Shown here: positions 28,947-54,427 of the stretch, one piece after another
Layout: each line of letters starts with the position of its first letter
How positions within the stretch are numbered: position 1 is the stretch's first letter
Assembly (NCBI GenBank): GCA_003388505.1
Contig: QQVO01000076.1
Location: forward strand, 1 to 64,000
Direction of reading: 5' to 3'
Source of the DNA: Planctomycetota bacterium
Lineage (GTDB): Bacteria > Planctomycetota > Planctomycetia > Planctomycetales > Planctomycetaceae
DNA length: 64,000 nt
Translations under genes and position numbers: made by a program
The notes under the pieces: model-generated
What the model was told of the DNA's origin: nothing
Database searches by the model: none
What the model saw: only the letters and a program-made list of their open reading frames with translations

Positions 28947-28985
28947 ACGCGCTCACGAAACGCGCTCACGAAACGCGCTCACGAA
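28947..28985. repeat. Three tandem copies of a 13-base unit
   Basis: The unit 'acgcgctcacgaa' occurs three times without mismatch at 28947-28959, 28960-28972 and 28973-28985. Confidence 0.95.
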
Positions 28986-28995
28986 AAACTGGCAG

Positions 28996-50351: not shown

Positions 50352-50577
50352 GGGCCCAGCCGCACCCGATTCTTGAATCTCCTGACGGTGATCGAGTGCG
50401 GTTGGTTGCACGTTGTTTTCGACCTGGCAGTGGTCTTGCAGTGTTCGTAACATGCCGTTACTGAATAGCTTGCAAGAATCGTTGACAACTCTGGAGGAAA
50501 GCAAATCAGGGACGTCCATTGACACTGCCTGAGGGCGATAATACGTTGTTGGAACATTGTGGCAACTCAGGTGCGAC

Positions 50578-50805
50578 ATGATAAAGACGTTGACGAAGCA
50601 CGGCAACAGCCTTGCGTTGGTGATTGAGAAACCGATTCTGGAACTCTTGGGCATCGACGCCGATACGCCGCTGGAAGTTACTACAGACGGCACAAACCTC
50701 AAGGTGTCACCGGTGACCGATGTGAATCGACGCGAGAAGTTCCAGGCAGCCTTGGCCAAGACCAATCGGAAGTATGGCAAGGTGCTGAAGAAACTCGCGG
50801 AATGA
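50578..50805 (+). CDS. AbrB/MazE-type antitoxin
   Basis: The protein has 75 residues from the ATG at 50578 (aggtg upstream). The swapped-hairpin AbrB motif is seen: MIKTLTKHGNSLALVIEKPILELLGIDADTPLEVTTDGTNLKVSPV (1-46). The C-terminal helix (REKFQAALAKTNRKYGKVLKKLAE) would contact and block the toxin. Its stop is four bases before the Doc-type toxin gene. A TTGACA-like box at 50519-50524 and TAATAC at 50539-50544 are spaced only 14 bases, so the promoter is uncertain. Confidence 0.92.
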   Translation: MIKTLTKHGNSLALVIEKPILELLGIDADTPLEVTTDGTNLKVSPVTDVNRREKFQAALAKTNRKYGKVLKKLAE

Positions 50806-50809
50806 CGGA

Positions 50810-51223
50810 ATGAGCGATGGGCCGGTCAATCCAATATTCCTCACGATGGAGGAGGTTCTGGAGATCCACCAGGATCAGATCACGCGATATGGTGGAAGCG
50901 ACGGAATTCTGAATCGAGGATCGCTGGAATCCGCGCTCGCTCAGCCCCAGGCAACCGACGGCAGTCAATTCCTGCACGGCGACGTGTACGAAATGGCCGC
51001 CGTATATCTTCATCATCTCGCTCGGAACCACGCATTCGCCGACGGGAACAAGCGCGTCGCGACCGTGTCCGCGATTGTGTTCCTCGCACTCAACGGCTAC
51101 GACCTTGAAGCCGACGACGACGAGCTTGAACAGATAGTGCTCTCCGTCGCGCGCGGCGAATCGGACCGAGCGGCCGTTGCCGAATTCTTTCGAAGGAACT
51201 GCGTGGCGAGCACAGATCAATAG
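50810..51223 (+). CDS. doc: Doc/Fic-type toxin (death on curing)
   Basis: The protein has 137 residues. It carries the Fic/Doc core HAFADGNKR (74-82), i.e. H-x-F-x-D/E-G-N-K, in which the His and the NKR are those of Doc kinases and Fic AMPylases. The preamble FLTMEEVLEIHQDQITRYGGSDGILNRGSLESALAQP (10-46) is typical of stand-alone Doc-like toxins that pair with AbrB or Phd antitoxins. Doc-type toxins phosphorylate EF-Tu in P1; here the target is not known. Confidence 0.92.
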   Translation: MSDGPVNPIFLTMEEVLEIHQDQITRYGGSDGILNRGSLESALAQPQATDGSQFLHGDVYEMAAVYLHHLARNHAFADGNKRVATVSAIVFLALNGYDLEADDDELEQIVLSVARGESDRAAVAEFFRRNCVASTDQ

Positions 51224-51378: not shown

Positions 51379-52677
51379 ATGCCGAAAAATATGATTGTCG
51401 CCCAGTCGGGCGGTCCCTCTCCTGTCATCAACAACACGCTGCGCGGGATCGTCGAGACCGCGCGGGAGATGGACGAAATTGGCACGGTCTACGGCGGCTG
51501 GCACGGGATCGAGGGGGTGTTGAAGGAGGAACTTCTCAACCTCTCCGAGCAATGTCCCGACGAAATCTCCCTGCTCCGCACCACTCCGGCCGCGGGATCG
51601 ATCGGAACCTGCCGCTACAAACTCAAGGACGGCCAGACGGAAGACTTCGACCGCGTGCTGGACGTGTTCCGTGCTCATGATGTGGGCTATTTCATCTACA
51701 TCGGCGGCAACGACTCCATGGACACCGCCAACAAAGTCGCCAACCTGGCCCGGGAGCGCGGCCTCGACGTCGTCGGCATCGGTGGTCCAAAGACGATCGA
51801 CAACGACGTCGGCGACTCGGAGTACAAGCTGATCGATCACACGCCCGGTTACGGTTCCACCGCCCGCTACTGGAGCAACTACGTCCAGATGGCGAACGAG
51901 GAGAACGCCGGGTCATCACCGGCCGATCCGGTGCTGGTGTTGCAGGCGATGGGCCGCAAGATCGGCTACATCCCCGCCGCCGCCCGGCTCGCCGACCCGA
52001 ACCGCGAGATGCCGCTGCAGATCTATCTGGCGGAAAGGCCGGTCAACATCGAGCAGATCCGGGAGAACGTCAACGCGATGCTCAAGGAGCGTGGGCGGTG
52101 CATCGTGGTTGTCAGCGAGGGGCTGCAGATTGAAGGACTGGAGATCCCCGAGGAGTTCATCGTCCGCGACTCGTTCGGCCACGCGATGCTCTCATCGAGC
52201 AAGATCACTGTCGGCCAGATGCTGACGAATGCGCTCAACGACGGGAAACTGGCCGTCAAAGGAGCAACTCGCTGTAACGTGCCGGGAACCGACCAGCGGA
52301 ACAACATCATTCATGCATCCAACGTCGATCTCAGCGAAGCGTATTACGTCGGTCAGAAAGCCGCGCTGCTGGCGGCCGCCGGCGAGCACGGCTACATGGC
52401 CAGCATTCTTCGCACGGATCGTGACAACTACACCGTCGAGTACGGCAAAGCACCCTTGTCCGAAGTCGCCAACAGCGAACGGCATTTCCCGGCGGACTGG
52501 ATCACAGAGGACGGCATGGACGTCACCGATGAGTTCGTCAAGTACGCCCGCCCCCTCATCGGCGACAACTGGGTCAGCGTTCCGATCATCAACGGCCGCC
52601 TGCGCATGGCCCGGATGAAGCCGATCTTTGCGGACCAGAAACTCACCAAGTACGTGCCGCAGGCGGATCGGGAGTAA
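51379..52677 (+). CDS. pfp: 6-phosphofructokinase, pyrophosphate-dependent type
   Basis: The protein has 432 residues. The N-terminus IVAQSGGPSPVINNTL (6-21) is the usual PFK opening. Positions that separate PPi- from ATP-using enzymes: GGNDSMDT at 109-116 (Gly-Gly-Asn-Asp; the PPi type has GGDD and the ATP type GGDG), and PKTIDND at 137-143 with Lys where ATP enzymes have Gly. Both favour the PPi type. The enzyme would be reversible, feeding glycolysis or gluconeogenesis. The ATG at 51379 lies in a spacer of 155 bases after doc. Confidence 0.88.
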   Translation: MPKNMIVAQSGGPSPVINNTLRGIVETAREMDEIGTVYGGWHGIEGVLKEELLNLSEQCPDEISLLRTTPAAGSIGTCRYKLKDGQTEDFDRVLDVFRAHDVGYFIYIGGNDSMDTANKVANLARERGLDVVGIGGPKTIDNDVGDSEYKLIDHTPGYGSTARYWSNYVQMANEENAGSSPADPVLVLQAMGRKIGYIPAAARLADPNREMPLQIYLAERPVNIEQIRENVNAMLKERGRCIVVVSEGLQIEGLEIPEEFIVRDSFGHAMLSSSKITVGQMLTNALNDGKLAVKGATRCNVPGTDQRNNIIHASNVDLSEAYYVGQKAALLAAAGEHGYMASILRTDRDNYTVEYGKAPLSEVANSERHFPADWITEDGMDVTDEFVKYARPLIGDNWVSVPIINGRLRMARMKPIFADQKLTKYVPQADRE

Positions 52678-52723
52678 CAGAGTCCCTTGTACCGGGTTCG
52701 CCGTACTCACGACTCAGCACCGC

Positions 52724-52766
52724 GTACTCCGTACTCAGTACGGGGTACTCTGTACTCAGTACCGGG
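52724..52766. repeat. Tandem GTACT-rich repeat, upstream flank
   Basis: Two nearly identical 21-22-base units, 'gtactcygtactcagtac' plus 'sggg', at 52724-52744 and 52745-52766, with a degenerate third one at about 52701-52720. They follow the pfp stop and precede the end of the S23-like gene. Confidence 0.75.
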
Positions 52767-52782
52767 TGCAGAGTCCGCCCGC

Positions 52783-53262
52783 TCACTCCGACTTTTTCCG
52801 ATACAACTCCGGCCTCTCCTGGCCGGTGATACGCTCGTACATCTCCCAGACTTCATCGCTCCAGTTTCTCGCCTTGCGCAGATGTTTCACCCCCGACCCC
52901 GGTTTCACCATCGACGTGATCAACGCCACAATCTGCTTGCGAATCTCCGTCCCCTCCTGAAACAGCCTGCCGTAGTCTTCTTGCGTGAGATACTCCCGAT
53001 CATACGCGGCCACCAGGTGCGACTGCGTTTCGTTCAGACTGCCGATCGAGTAACCCAGAAATGTGATGAACTCACCCTGCGTCCCTCGGCCGAATCCCTC
53101 TGCAATGTTGGCCATCACCGATTCCGAAGAGTCATTGATCTGCACCACGAGCCGGCGGTCGGAATTGAACGGGGCATCCCGCGTGAACCGAAAGATCGCC
53201 TTCGACCACTCGCGCGCCCGCTGCCAGCAACGCAGATCGGTAAACACGCGCACGCCCGCCAT
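52783..53262 (-). CDS. Four-helix-bundle protein (23S rRNA intervening-sequence type)
   Basis: The protein has 159 residues from the ATG at 53262 (AAGAGGTG site upstream). The typical pattern is present: RVFTDLRCWQRAREWSKAIFRFTRDAPFNSDRRLVVQINDSSESVMANIAEGFGRGTQGEFITFLGYSIGSLNETQSHLVAAYDREYLTQEDYGRLFQEGTEIRKQIVALITSM (about 4-118). The S23-like four-helix bundle family occurs in 23S rRNA insertions, as accessory (Avd-like) proteins of diversity-generating retroelements, and very often alone as here. No reverse transcriptase is near. It is flanked on both sides by GTACT-rich repeats. Confidence 0.92.
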   Translation of the reverse strand: MAGVRVFTDLRCWQRAREWSKAIFRFTRDAPFNSDRRLVVQINDSSESVMANIAEGFGRGTQGEFITFLGYSIGSLNETQSHLVAAYDREYLTQEDYGRLFQEGTEIRKQIVALITSMVKPGSGVKHLRKARNWSDEVWEMYERITGQERPELYRKKSE

Positions 53263-53328
53263 GATGCACCTCTTGTGGTTGGATGGGATTTGAAAACGAC
53301 GCGAGTTCGTGCGTCGCATTTCGAGAGT

Positions 53329-53369
53329 CGTACAGTACCGAGCACACTGTACCGGGTACTTGGTACTTA
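53329..53369. repeat. GTACT-rich repeat, downstream flank
   Basis: 'gtacagtaccgagcac', 'actgtaccgggtact' and 'tggtactt' match in style the repeats at 52724-52766, so the S23-like gene is bracketed by this motif. Confidence 0.6.
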
Positions 53370-53483: not shown

Positions 53484-53509
53484 AGCCCGGTGAAACCTGA
53501 GAGTTGACC

Positions 53510-54244
53510 ATGACGCACGCCATCGAACGACCGGCGGCCGAATCGCAGCCGCGTAAGGAAGACTTTTGCGGCGTCCCCCCTCTGCGCAACGGCGACCGCC
53601 TTTCCCGTGAGGAGTTCTACCGCCGCTGGGACGCGATGCCGGAGTTGGTGAACGCGGAGCGAATTGAGGGGATCGTCTCGATGTCGGCATCGGTCAGAAG
53701 AAAAGCGCATGGTCGACCGCATTCCCACATGATTGGCTGGCTGGTCGGTTATGAATCCGAGACGCCGGGCGTCGAAGCGGGCGACAACAGTACGCTGCAG
53801 GTCGGACCTGACAGTGACCCCCAACCGGACGCGTATCTCCTGATACTCCCCGAACACGGAGGTCAGTGCCGCTTCACCGAAGACGACTACATCGAAGGGG
53901 GCCCGGAGTTCATCGCGGAGGTCTCCTCCAGCAGCATTTCACGGGATTTGAACAAGAAGCTGCCGCTGTATCGCGACAACGGTGTGCAGGAGTATGTTGT
54001 CTGGAAGACGGAAGAGCGCGAGATGCTGTGGTTCCGACTGGAAGAGGGGGACTACGTGCGGGCGTCTCCGGACGATGACGGAATCTTTCGCAGCAGCGTG
54101 TTCCCCGGCCTCTGGTTGGATGCAACGGCAATGCTCGACGGCAACCTCAAGCAAGTGTTGTCGGTGCTGCGGCAGGGGCTGGGATCGGCGGAGCACCGGG
54201 CGTTTGTACAGCAGTTGGCGGCACGCCGGTCGGGCGGTGCGTGA
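53510..54244 (+). CDS. Uma2-family endonuclease-fold protein (DUF820)
   Basis: The protein has 244 residues from the ATG at 53510. The PD-(D/E)xK-like core is visible: GPDSDPQPDAYLLILPE (about 104-120), then EFIAEVSSSSISRDLNKKLPLYRDNGVQEYVVW (about 134-166), where Glu-x-x-x-Ser/Arg-x-x-Lys matches the Uma2 active-site strand and the following helix. The N-terminus is rich in basic residues. Uma2 proteins are abundant in planctomycetes and cyanobacteria, usually as single genes with unknown function. Confidence 0.88.
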   Translation: MTHAIERPAAESQPRKEDFCGVPPLRNGDRLSREEFYRRWDAMPELVNAERIEGIVSMSASVRRKAHGRPHSHMIGWLVGYESETPGVEAGDNSTLQVGPDSDPQPDAYLLILPEHGGQCRFTEDDYIEGGPEFIAEVSSSSISRDLNKKLPLYRDNGVQEYVVWKTEEREMLWFRLEEGDYVRASPDDDGIFRSSVFPGLWLDATAMLDGNLKQVLSVLRQGLGSAEHRAFVQQLAARRSGGA

Positions 54245-54381: not shown

Positions 54382-54421
54382 AGACTGAACACTGAACACC
54401 GATAACCGACAACTGAGCACC
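54382..54421. repeat. Degenerate tandem of 'actgaacac'-type words
   Basis: 'actgaacactgaacaccga' and then 'taaccgacaactgagcacc' form a degenerate tandem array ending seven bases before the HAD gene start. It leaves little room for a normal ribosome-binding site. Confidence 0.6.
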
Positions 54422-54427
54422 AACGCC

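Follow-up and report, generated by a model that had tools for sequence, protein, structure and literature searches.

An S23-like gene in planctomycete DNA and the two inverted arrays of short tandem repeats that bracket it are well supported, from sequence comparisons, as a unit that would move as a whole. The gene lies in a 64,000-nucleotide stretch of DNA of a Planctomycetota bacterium (hereafter, the window). In the interpretation that we favour, and that we consider reasonably probable, it belongs to a compact mobile unit lacking a transposase, in which one gene for an S23-like protein, or 23S rRNA-intervening-sequence protein (IVP), is bracketed by two arrays of 7-nt (sometimes 8-nt) units, one array being the reverse complement of the other, and the protein would recognise these units. 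S23-like ("four helix bundle") genes often occur alone and have no known role; the link to heptamers makes both the genes and the arrays testable.

The S23-like unit of the window

The features of the unit and of its surroundings are collected in Table 1. The unit is sited between the PFK and Uma2 genes, not inside a 23S rRNA gene, and its S23-like gene is antisense to both of these neighbours. PF05635 is the sole family match inside the unit, at 102 bits (cut-off 33.8), and the gene matches TIGR02436 too; family searches of the unit found no encoded transposase, the Y1 (RAYT) type included. Moreover, PADLOC gave no defence-system match for the feature, and a phage collection gave no match to it at the sensitivity used, although viral contigs do hold S23-like relatives with the same array pattern.

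Table 1. Positions of the S23-like unit, its parts and neighbouring features in the window.
Feature	Position	Strand	Remarks
Entire unit (S23-like gene between two mutually inverted heptamer arrays)	52702..53368	-	~670 bp
3'-side array, GTACTCM-type heptamers, ~9 units, partly degenerate	52702..52767		TRF period 7/21
5'-side array, GTACNNN heptamers, ~5 units, reverse complement of the 3'-side array	53330..53368		
S23-like/IVP gene, 159 aa, ATG at 53262	52783..53262	-	PF05635, TIGR02436
6-phosphofructokinase-like (PFK) gene, host gene outside the unit	51379..52677	+	PF00365
Uma2-family gene, host gene outside the unit	53504..54244	+	PF05685
Heptamer array without a gene (CTGAACA/CTGACAA type), lying between the Uma2 and HAD genes	54384..54425		TRF

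From the sequence alone, palindromic units rich in GTACT had been described on both sides of the gene. Repeats of a GTAC type are indeed present on both sides, but they are mainly tandem arrays of period 7 (the TRF period of 21 being 3 x 7) and not palindromes, the repeated unit merely happening to include the palindrome GTAC. Throughout the 6.78-Mb genome, GTACNNNGTACNNNGTAC is confined to the two flanking arrays, with 0 occurrences of the reversed control pattern. In addition, GTACTCNGTAC with up to 1 mismatch has 12 matches in the window versus 0.74 expected, a number reached by 0 of 100 shuffles. When the unit was folded as RNA, its ends paired, the overall fold being no better than those of shuffles (one fold). 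The gene-less array listed last in Table 1 agrees in type with another of the genome's S23 genes (at C20:35.2 kb), and an array resembling it is found at the same place in locus L234 of the relative G015.

Regarding the protein, its AlphaFold2 model (pLDDT 88.8) is a confident four-helix bundle with a C-terminal helix, and no known catalytic domain is present. Among solved structures, it comes closest in fold to XCC0516 (2gsc) and BT_0352 (2rld), and next to Avd (4dwl). The crystals of 2gsc and 2rld contain five chains each and, by analogy with these relatives and with the Avd fold, the S23-like protein is probably a pentamer.

Two further observations concern the window itself. Just upstream of PFK, at positions 50557-51223, a MazE-like antitoxin gene, recognised by a weak match, precedes a gene of the Fic/Doc family, the two being a likely toxin-antitoxin pair. 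Positions 28947-28986 hold a perfect 13-nt tandem repeat of 3.1 copies (ACGCGCTCACGAA).

Gene-specific heptamers across S23-like genes

We compared 88 S23-like genes (76 distinct planctomycete genes and 12 plasmid genes) with 410 controls of matched size drawn from those genomes. An array of lag 7 or 8 that flanks the gene on at least one side and is accompanied by an inverted match was detected at 58 of the 88 S23-like genes and at 2 of the 410 controls (p about 1e-50). Two-sided arrays accompanied 46.6% of the S23-like genes and none of the 410 controls, and by eye the pattern is visible in nearly all 88. Other lags (e.g., 5, 10, 11 and 13) stood at background around S23-like genes, and chance or ordinary intergenic repeats are rejected by the gene-matched control and by the non-7 lags. 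Array-bearing loci span Planctomycetes, Cyanobacteria and Bacteroidota, plus the 23S-rRNA intervening sequence (IVS) of Azospirillum.

The sequence-only reading had made its proposal depend on repeats accompanying other S23-like genes, and had suggested checking those genes for flanking GTACT repeats. Repeats do accompany these genes, but GTACT is rejected as a general signature, because each gene has its own heptamer: an array of 7-nt (sometimes 8-nt) units lies upstream and its reverse complement downstream, the unit differing from gene to gene. The other two PF05635 genes of the window genome, both on contig C20, carry inverted GTCTAGG-type and inverted CAGTTNT-type heptamers. Wherever both arrays could be measured, the period was equal on the two sides (32 genes with 7/7, 5 with 8/8, none mixed), with a median of 4.3-4.4 units per array and a median end-to-end length of 478 bp. 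The two arrays of one gene resemble each other, in inverted orientation, more than arrays taken across genes (22.5 versus 12.0). The unit of TBK1r (locus L079) is one without a clear right array. A subclass with 8-nt units on both sides (e.g., GGAGATAA and GGAACTAA) was seen at loci L082, L092 and L146 and at the planctomycete loci L027, L029, L044 and L061.

Heptamer similarity also tracks protein similarity, with a Mantel r of 0.354 among 61 genes (reached by 0 of 5000 permutations) and of 0.359 when only pairs from different genomes were used (0 of 2000). Scrambling the base order within the unit lowered r to 0.18, so that base composition accounts for roughly half of it. As far as sequence shows, arrays have thus remained associated with their genes, while covariation alone is no proof of binding, as it may reflect joint ancestry rather than recognition.

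Filled sites, empty sites and arrays without a gene

It had been suggested that a gene bracketed in this way may be a mobile unit of its own, and that empty sites should be looked for in close relatives. As judged from sequence, the array association described above and the empty sites described here both support this suggestion. The closest relatives of the window protein are those of TBK1r (73% identical) and of locus L080 (69%); the three loci share the gene and the GTAC arrays alone, their neighbours being different. Comparison of 14 genomes of the TBK1r genus showed that the site is conserved and that the unit is missing in the closest genomes, the interval measuring 724 nt in TBK1r but 34 nt in G049 and 31 nt in G048.

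Plasmids offer further pairs of filled and empty sites. In Picosynechococcus, PCC 7003 is filled between cmr2 and cmr3 and PCC 7002 is empty; at a Nostoc plasmid site, CCNP1411 and C052 are filled, C057 and UHCC 0926 empty; and Anabaena 90 is filled between cas6 and cas4, where UHCC 0302 is empty. As to the window's own site, Uma2 directly follows PFK in G015, with no S23 gene between them, and none of 16 well-matched homologous loci of relatives has an S23-like gene after PFK (0.9-1.5 kb downstream examined). Three of these loci (L235, L240 and L245) have gene-less arrays 3' of PFK instead, which in two of the three form inverted pairs. Neither a target-site duplication nor an exact junction could be identified, the filled and empty plasmid sites differing imprecisely.

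Arrays without a gene are also dispersed through genomes that carry S23-like genes. G013 has 19 strong heptamer arrays in 0.8 Mb, where seven other lags gave 0-2 arrays apiece. Four genomes that carry S23 genes had array densities of 23.7, 35, 10.8 and 5 per Mb, and three that lack them had 0, 0 and 5 per Mb (the last being a single purine-rich tract), which we take as a trend and not a law, because the samples cover 0.2-0.8 Mb each. Moreover, 38 such orphan arrays are closer to the S23 heptamers of their own genome than to those of other genomes (0.645 versus 0.596, sd 0.015, 0 of 5000), and for 14 of them an inverted partner lies no more than 350 nt away, versus 2.8% expected. TBK1r has four orphan GTAC arrays beyond that at its S23 gene, and different heptamer arrays abut one another in its loci L282, L281, L283 and L284 (GGTTTCA, GTACTCA, GTACTCC and AACTGCT), as if inserting or converting into one another.

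Recombination between arrays is a serious rival to a mobile unit recognised by its own protein. According to this alternative, arrays would be independent, pre-existing landing pads between which the gene is exchanged as a cassette, the S23-like protein being cargo or a recombination helper. Such an exchange could leave the array that G046 keeps at the TBK1r site, where the gene is missing, and the gene-less array pair that Nostoc ATCC 53789 has at the Nostoc site; the abutting arrays of TBK1r point in the same direction. However, heptamer type tracks protein phylogeny across genomes, and congeners and plasmids are found from which gene and array are both absent (C057, UHCC 0926 and PCC 7002). 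Weighing these observations, we regard exchange between arrays as possible but unlikely to be the main explanation.

A lower probability still is given to the idea that the units have no mobility of their own, the arrays being regulatory or terminator repeats acquired by S23-like genes (e.g., for autoregulation) that spread by ordinary gene transfer. The arrays do lie close to the start and stop codons of the S23 genes, and on the coding strand upstream arrays are purine-rich in 79% of cases and downstream arrays pyrimidine-rich in 80%, the proximity and the upstream bias counting in favour of such a role. Nevertheless, the arrays are exactly inverted and of equal period, matching gene-less arrays occur elsewhere in the same genomes, and units have inserted into tightly packed operons and into rRNA.

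A possible mechanism and its relation to known systems

In the mobile unit that we favour, the S23-like protein would recognise its own heptamers at both ends and would provide recognition and not catalysis. The TRAP ring binds GAG repeats with one unit per subunit and, by analogy, the S23-like protein could perhaps read about one heptamer per subunit on single-stranded nucleic acid; array length, at about four units, does not match the five subunits of the proposed pentamer. Once bound, the protein might hold the two inverted ends together or fold the transcript. New copies would arise through borrowed host machinery, by template switching during replication or by recombination, often at pre-existing arrays, and gene-less inverted pairs would be non-autonomous derivatives. 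In transcripts, 23S rRNA included, paired arrays could form a processable stem, so that insertion would be tolerated.

The likeness to Avd of diversity-generating retroelements raises a different route. Avd (bAvd, PF22296; 4dwl) has the same fold as the window protein (TM 0.85 by target length) and some S23-like relatives match the Avd family, although the window protein has no PF22296 match and, unlike in those retroelements, no reverse transcriptase lies near the unit, the single PF00078 match of the genome being on another contig. If an S23-like protein served, like Avd, as chaperone to a reverse transcriptase provided in trans, the unit could spread through cDNA of its transcript. Besides the similar fold and the known insertions in rRNA, a strong sense bias fits with this: where both neighbours are co-oriented, the S23 gene is sense in 41 of 49 planctomycete cases (41:8; adjacent genes generally agree in 60%, by simple ORF calling) and in 9 of 10 on plasmids. 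But selection could also yield such a bias, reverse transcriptases do not adjoin the units, and of the 5 relatives that have no PF00078 match at all, 4 carry S23-like genes. In-trans reverse transcription is therefore unneeded for persistence, dependence on a resident PF00078 enzyme is not supported, and RNA-mediated copying seems to us improbable. Least probable of all is a system in which host Y1 (IS200/IS605-type) transposases act in trans on array hairpins: dispersed gene-less inverted pairs do look like REPINs and 5 of 7 relatives lacking Y1_Tnp are also without S23 genes, but the units encode no such enzyme, G010 and G031 have S23 genes without a Y1_Tnp match, and the association, itself weak, is confounded by the general load of mobile DNA.

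Several known systems resemble the S23 unit in part. IVSs with an S23p/IVP ORF are known from Coxiella and Leptospira, and mobility has been proposed for them (Ralph and McClelland 1993); in that of Coxiella, the S23p ORF is reported to be preceded by 3-4 heptamers (GACAGAT) in tandem and the ends to form a 28-bp stem, and excision by RNase III was shown (PMC4990558). The window unit shares with IVSs its protein family and inverted ends able to close a stem, but, like most S23 units, it is sited outside rRNA, between protein genes. On a plasmid of Azospirillum lipoferum 4B (L083), a classical IVS with Rfam 23S rRNA on both sides ends in inverted heptamer arrays that close a stem. The rRNA intervening sequence appears to be one special case of the heptamer-bracketed S23 element, and insertions that have been puzzling since 1990 would become one landing site of a wider element.

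Heptamer arrays, on the other hand, have been reported as simple sequence repeats, among them GGGAATC in Xanthomonas and GGGGATT in Nostoc (PMC4692102; see also PMC4679880), and were described as the most abundant periodic intergenic repeat in many prokaryotes, with "no clear clue" on function (PMC6344855). They have the same period as the S23 arrays, a similar number of units (mostly four) and frequent close inverted pairs, of which X. campestris pv. campestris has 70 (PMC4692102/PMC6344855); the same organism encodes the S23-like XCC0516. Unlike the arrays described here, those of PMC4692102 and PMC6344855 were linked to no mobile element or protein. REPIN/RAYT systems likewise combine short repeats flanking a protein gene with many dispersed gene-less inverted pairs in the same genome, but RAYTs are Y1 transposases and REPs single palindromes, whereas S23 units combine a non-catalytic bundle of helices with heptamers arrayed in tandem. 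Gene-less S23-type pairs are also reminiscent of MITEs, being short, with inverted ends and presumably moved in trans; they differ in that their ends are tandem heptamer arrays and their presumed autonomous partner has no transposase.

In the open-access literature, which excludes preprints and most subscription journals, we came across no paper that connects heptamer arrays to S23-like genes located outside rRNA. Heptamer arrays themselves and the mobile-element idea for rRNA IVSs are known; within that scope, heptamer ends as a general, gene-specific feature of S23 genes and their gene-less genomic derivatives appear to be new. There is a fair chance that the heptamer-bracketed S23 unit deserves a class of its own. 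The broader picture, which we judge about evenly balanced, is of a separate class of mobile element in which a ring-forming, non-catalytic protein reads a private 7- or 8-nt code, spreads its own gene and gene-less array pairs, explains much of the heptamer content of bacterial genomes and is unified with rRNA intervening sequences. More modestly, gene-less leftovers may explain part of the 7-letter repeats scattered in these genomes. With the two linked, every S23 protein would predict the repeat that accompanies it, and every family of repeats its protein.

Finally, some S23 units lie inside operons or gene clusters. On cyanobacterial plasmids (L086, L090 and L092) they sit inside CRISPR-Cas operons, at cas6-cas4 (type I-D) and cmr2-cmr3 (type III-B), the unit in the Cmr operon being nearly flush with the stop and start codons of its neighbours. 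In Synechocystis PCC 7339 (L099, 958-1512), the cmr2-cmr3 slot used by the S23 unit in PCC 7003 holds a Uma2 gene, a family that also neighbours the window unit. Moreover, locus L004 (G000 C20:26000-38500) has two S23 units, in the direction of the operon, in an apparent bacterial-microcompartment cluster whose ORFs are putatively shell-protein-like, aldehyde-dehydrogenase-like and aldolase-like.
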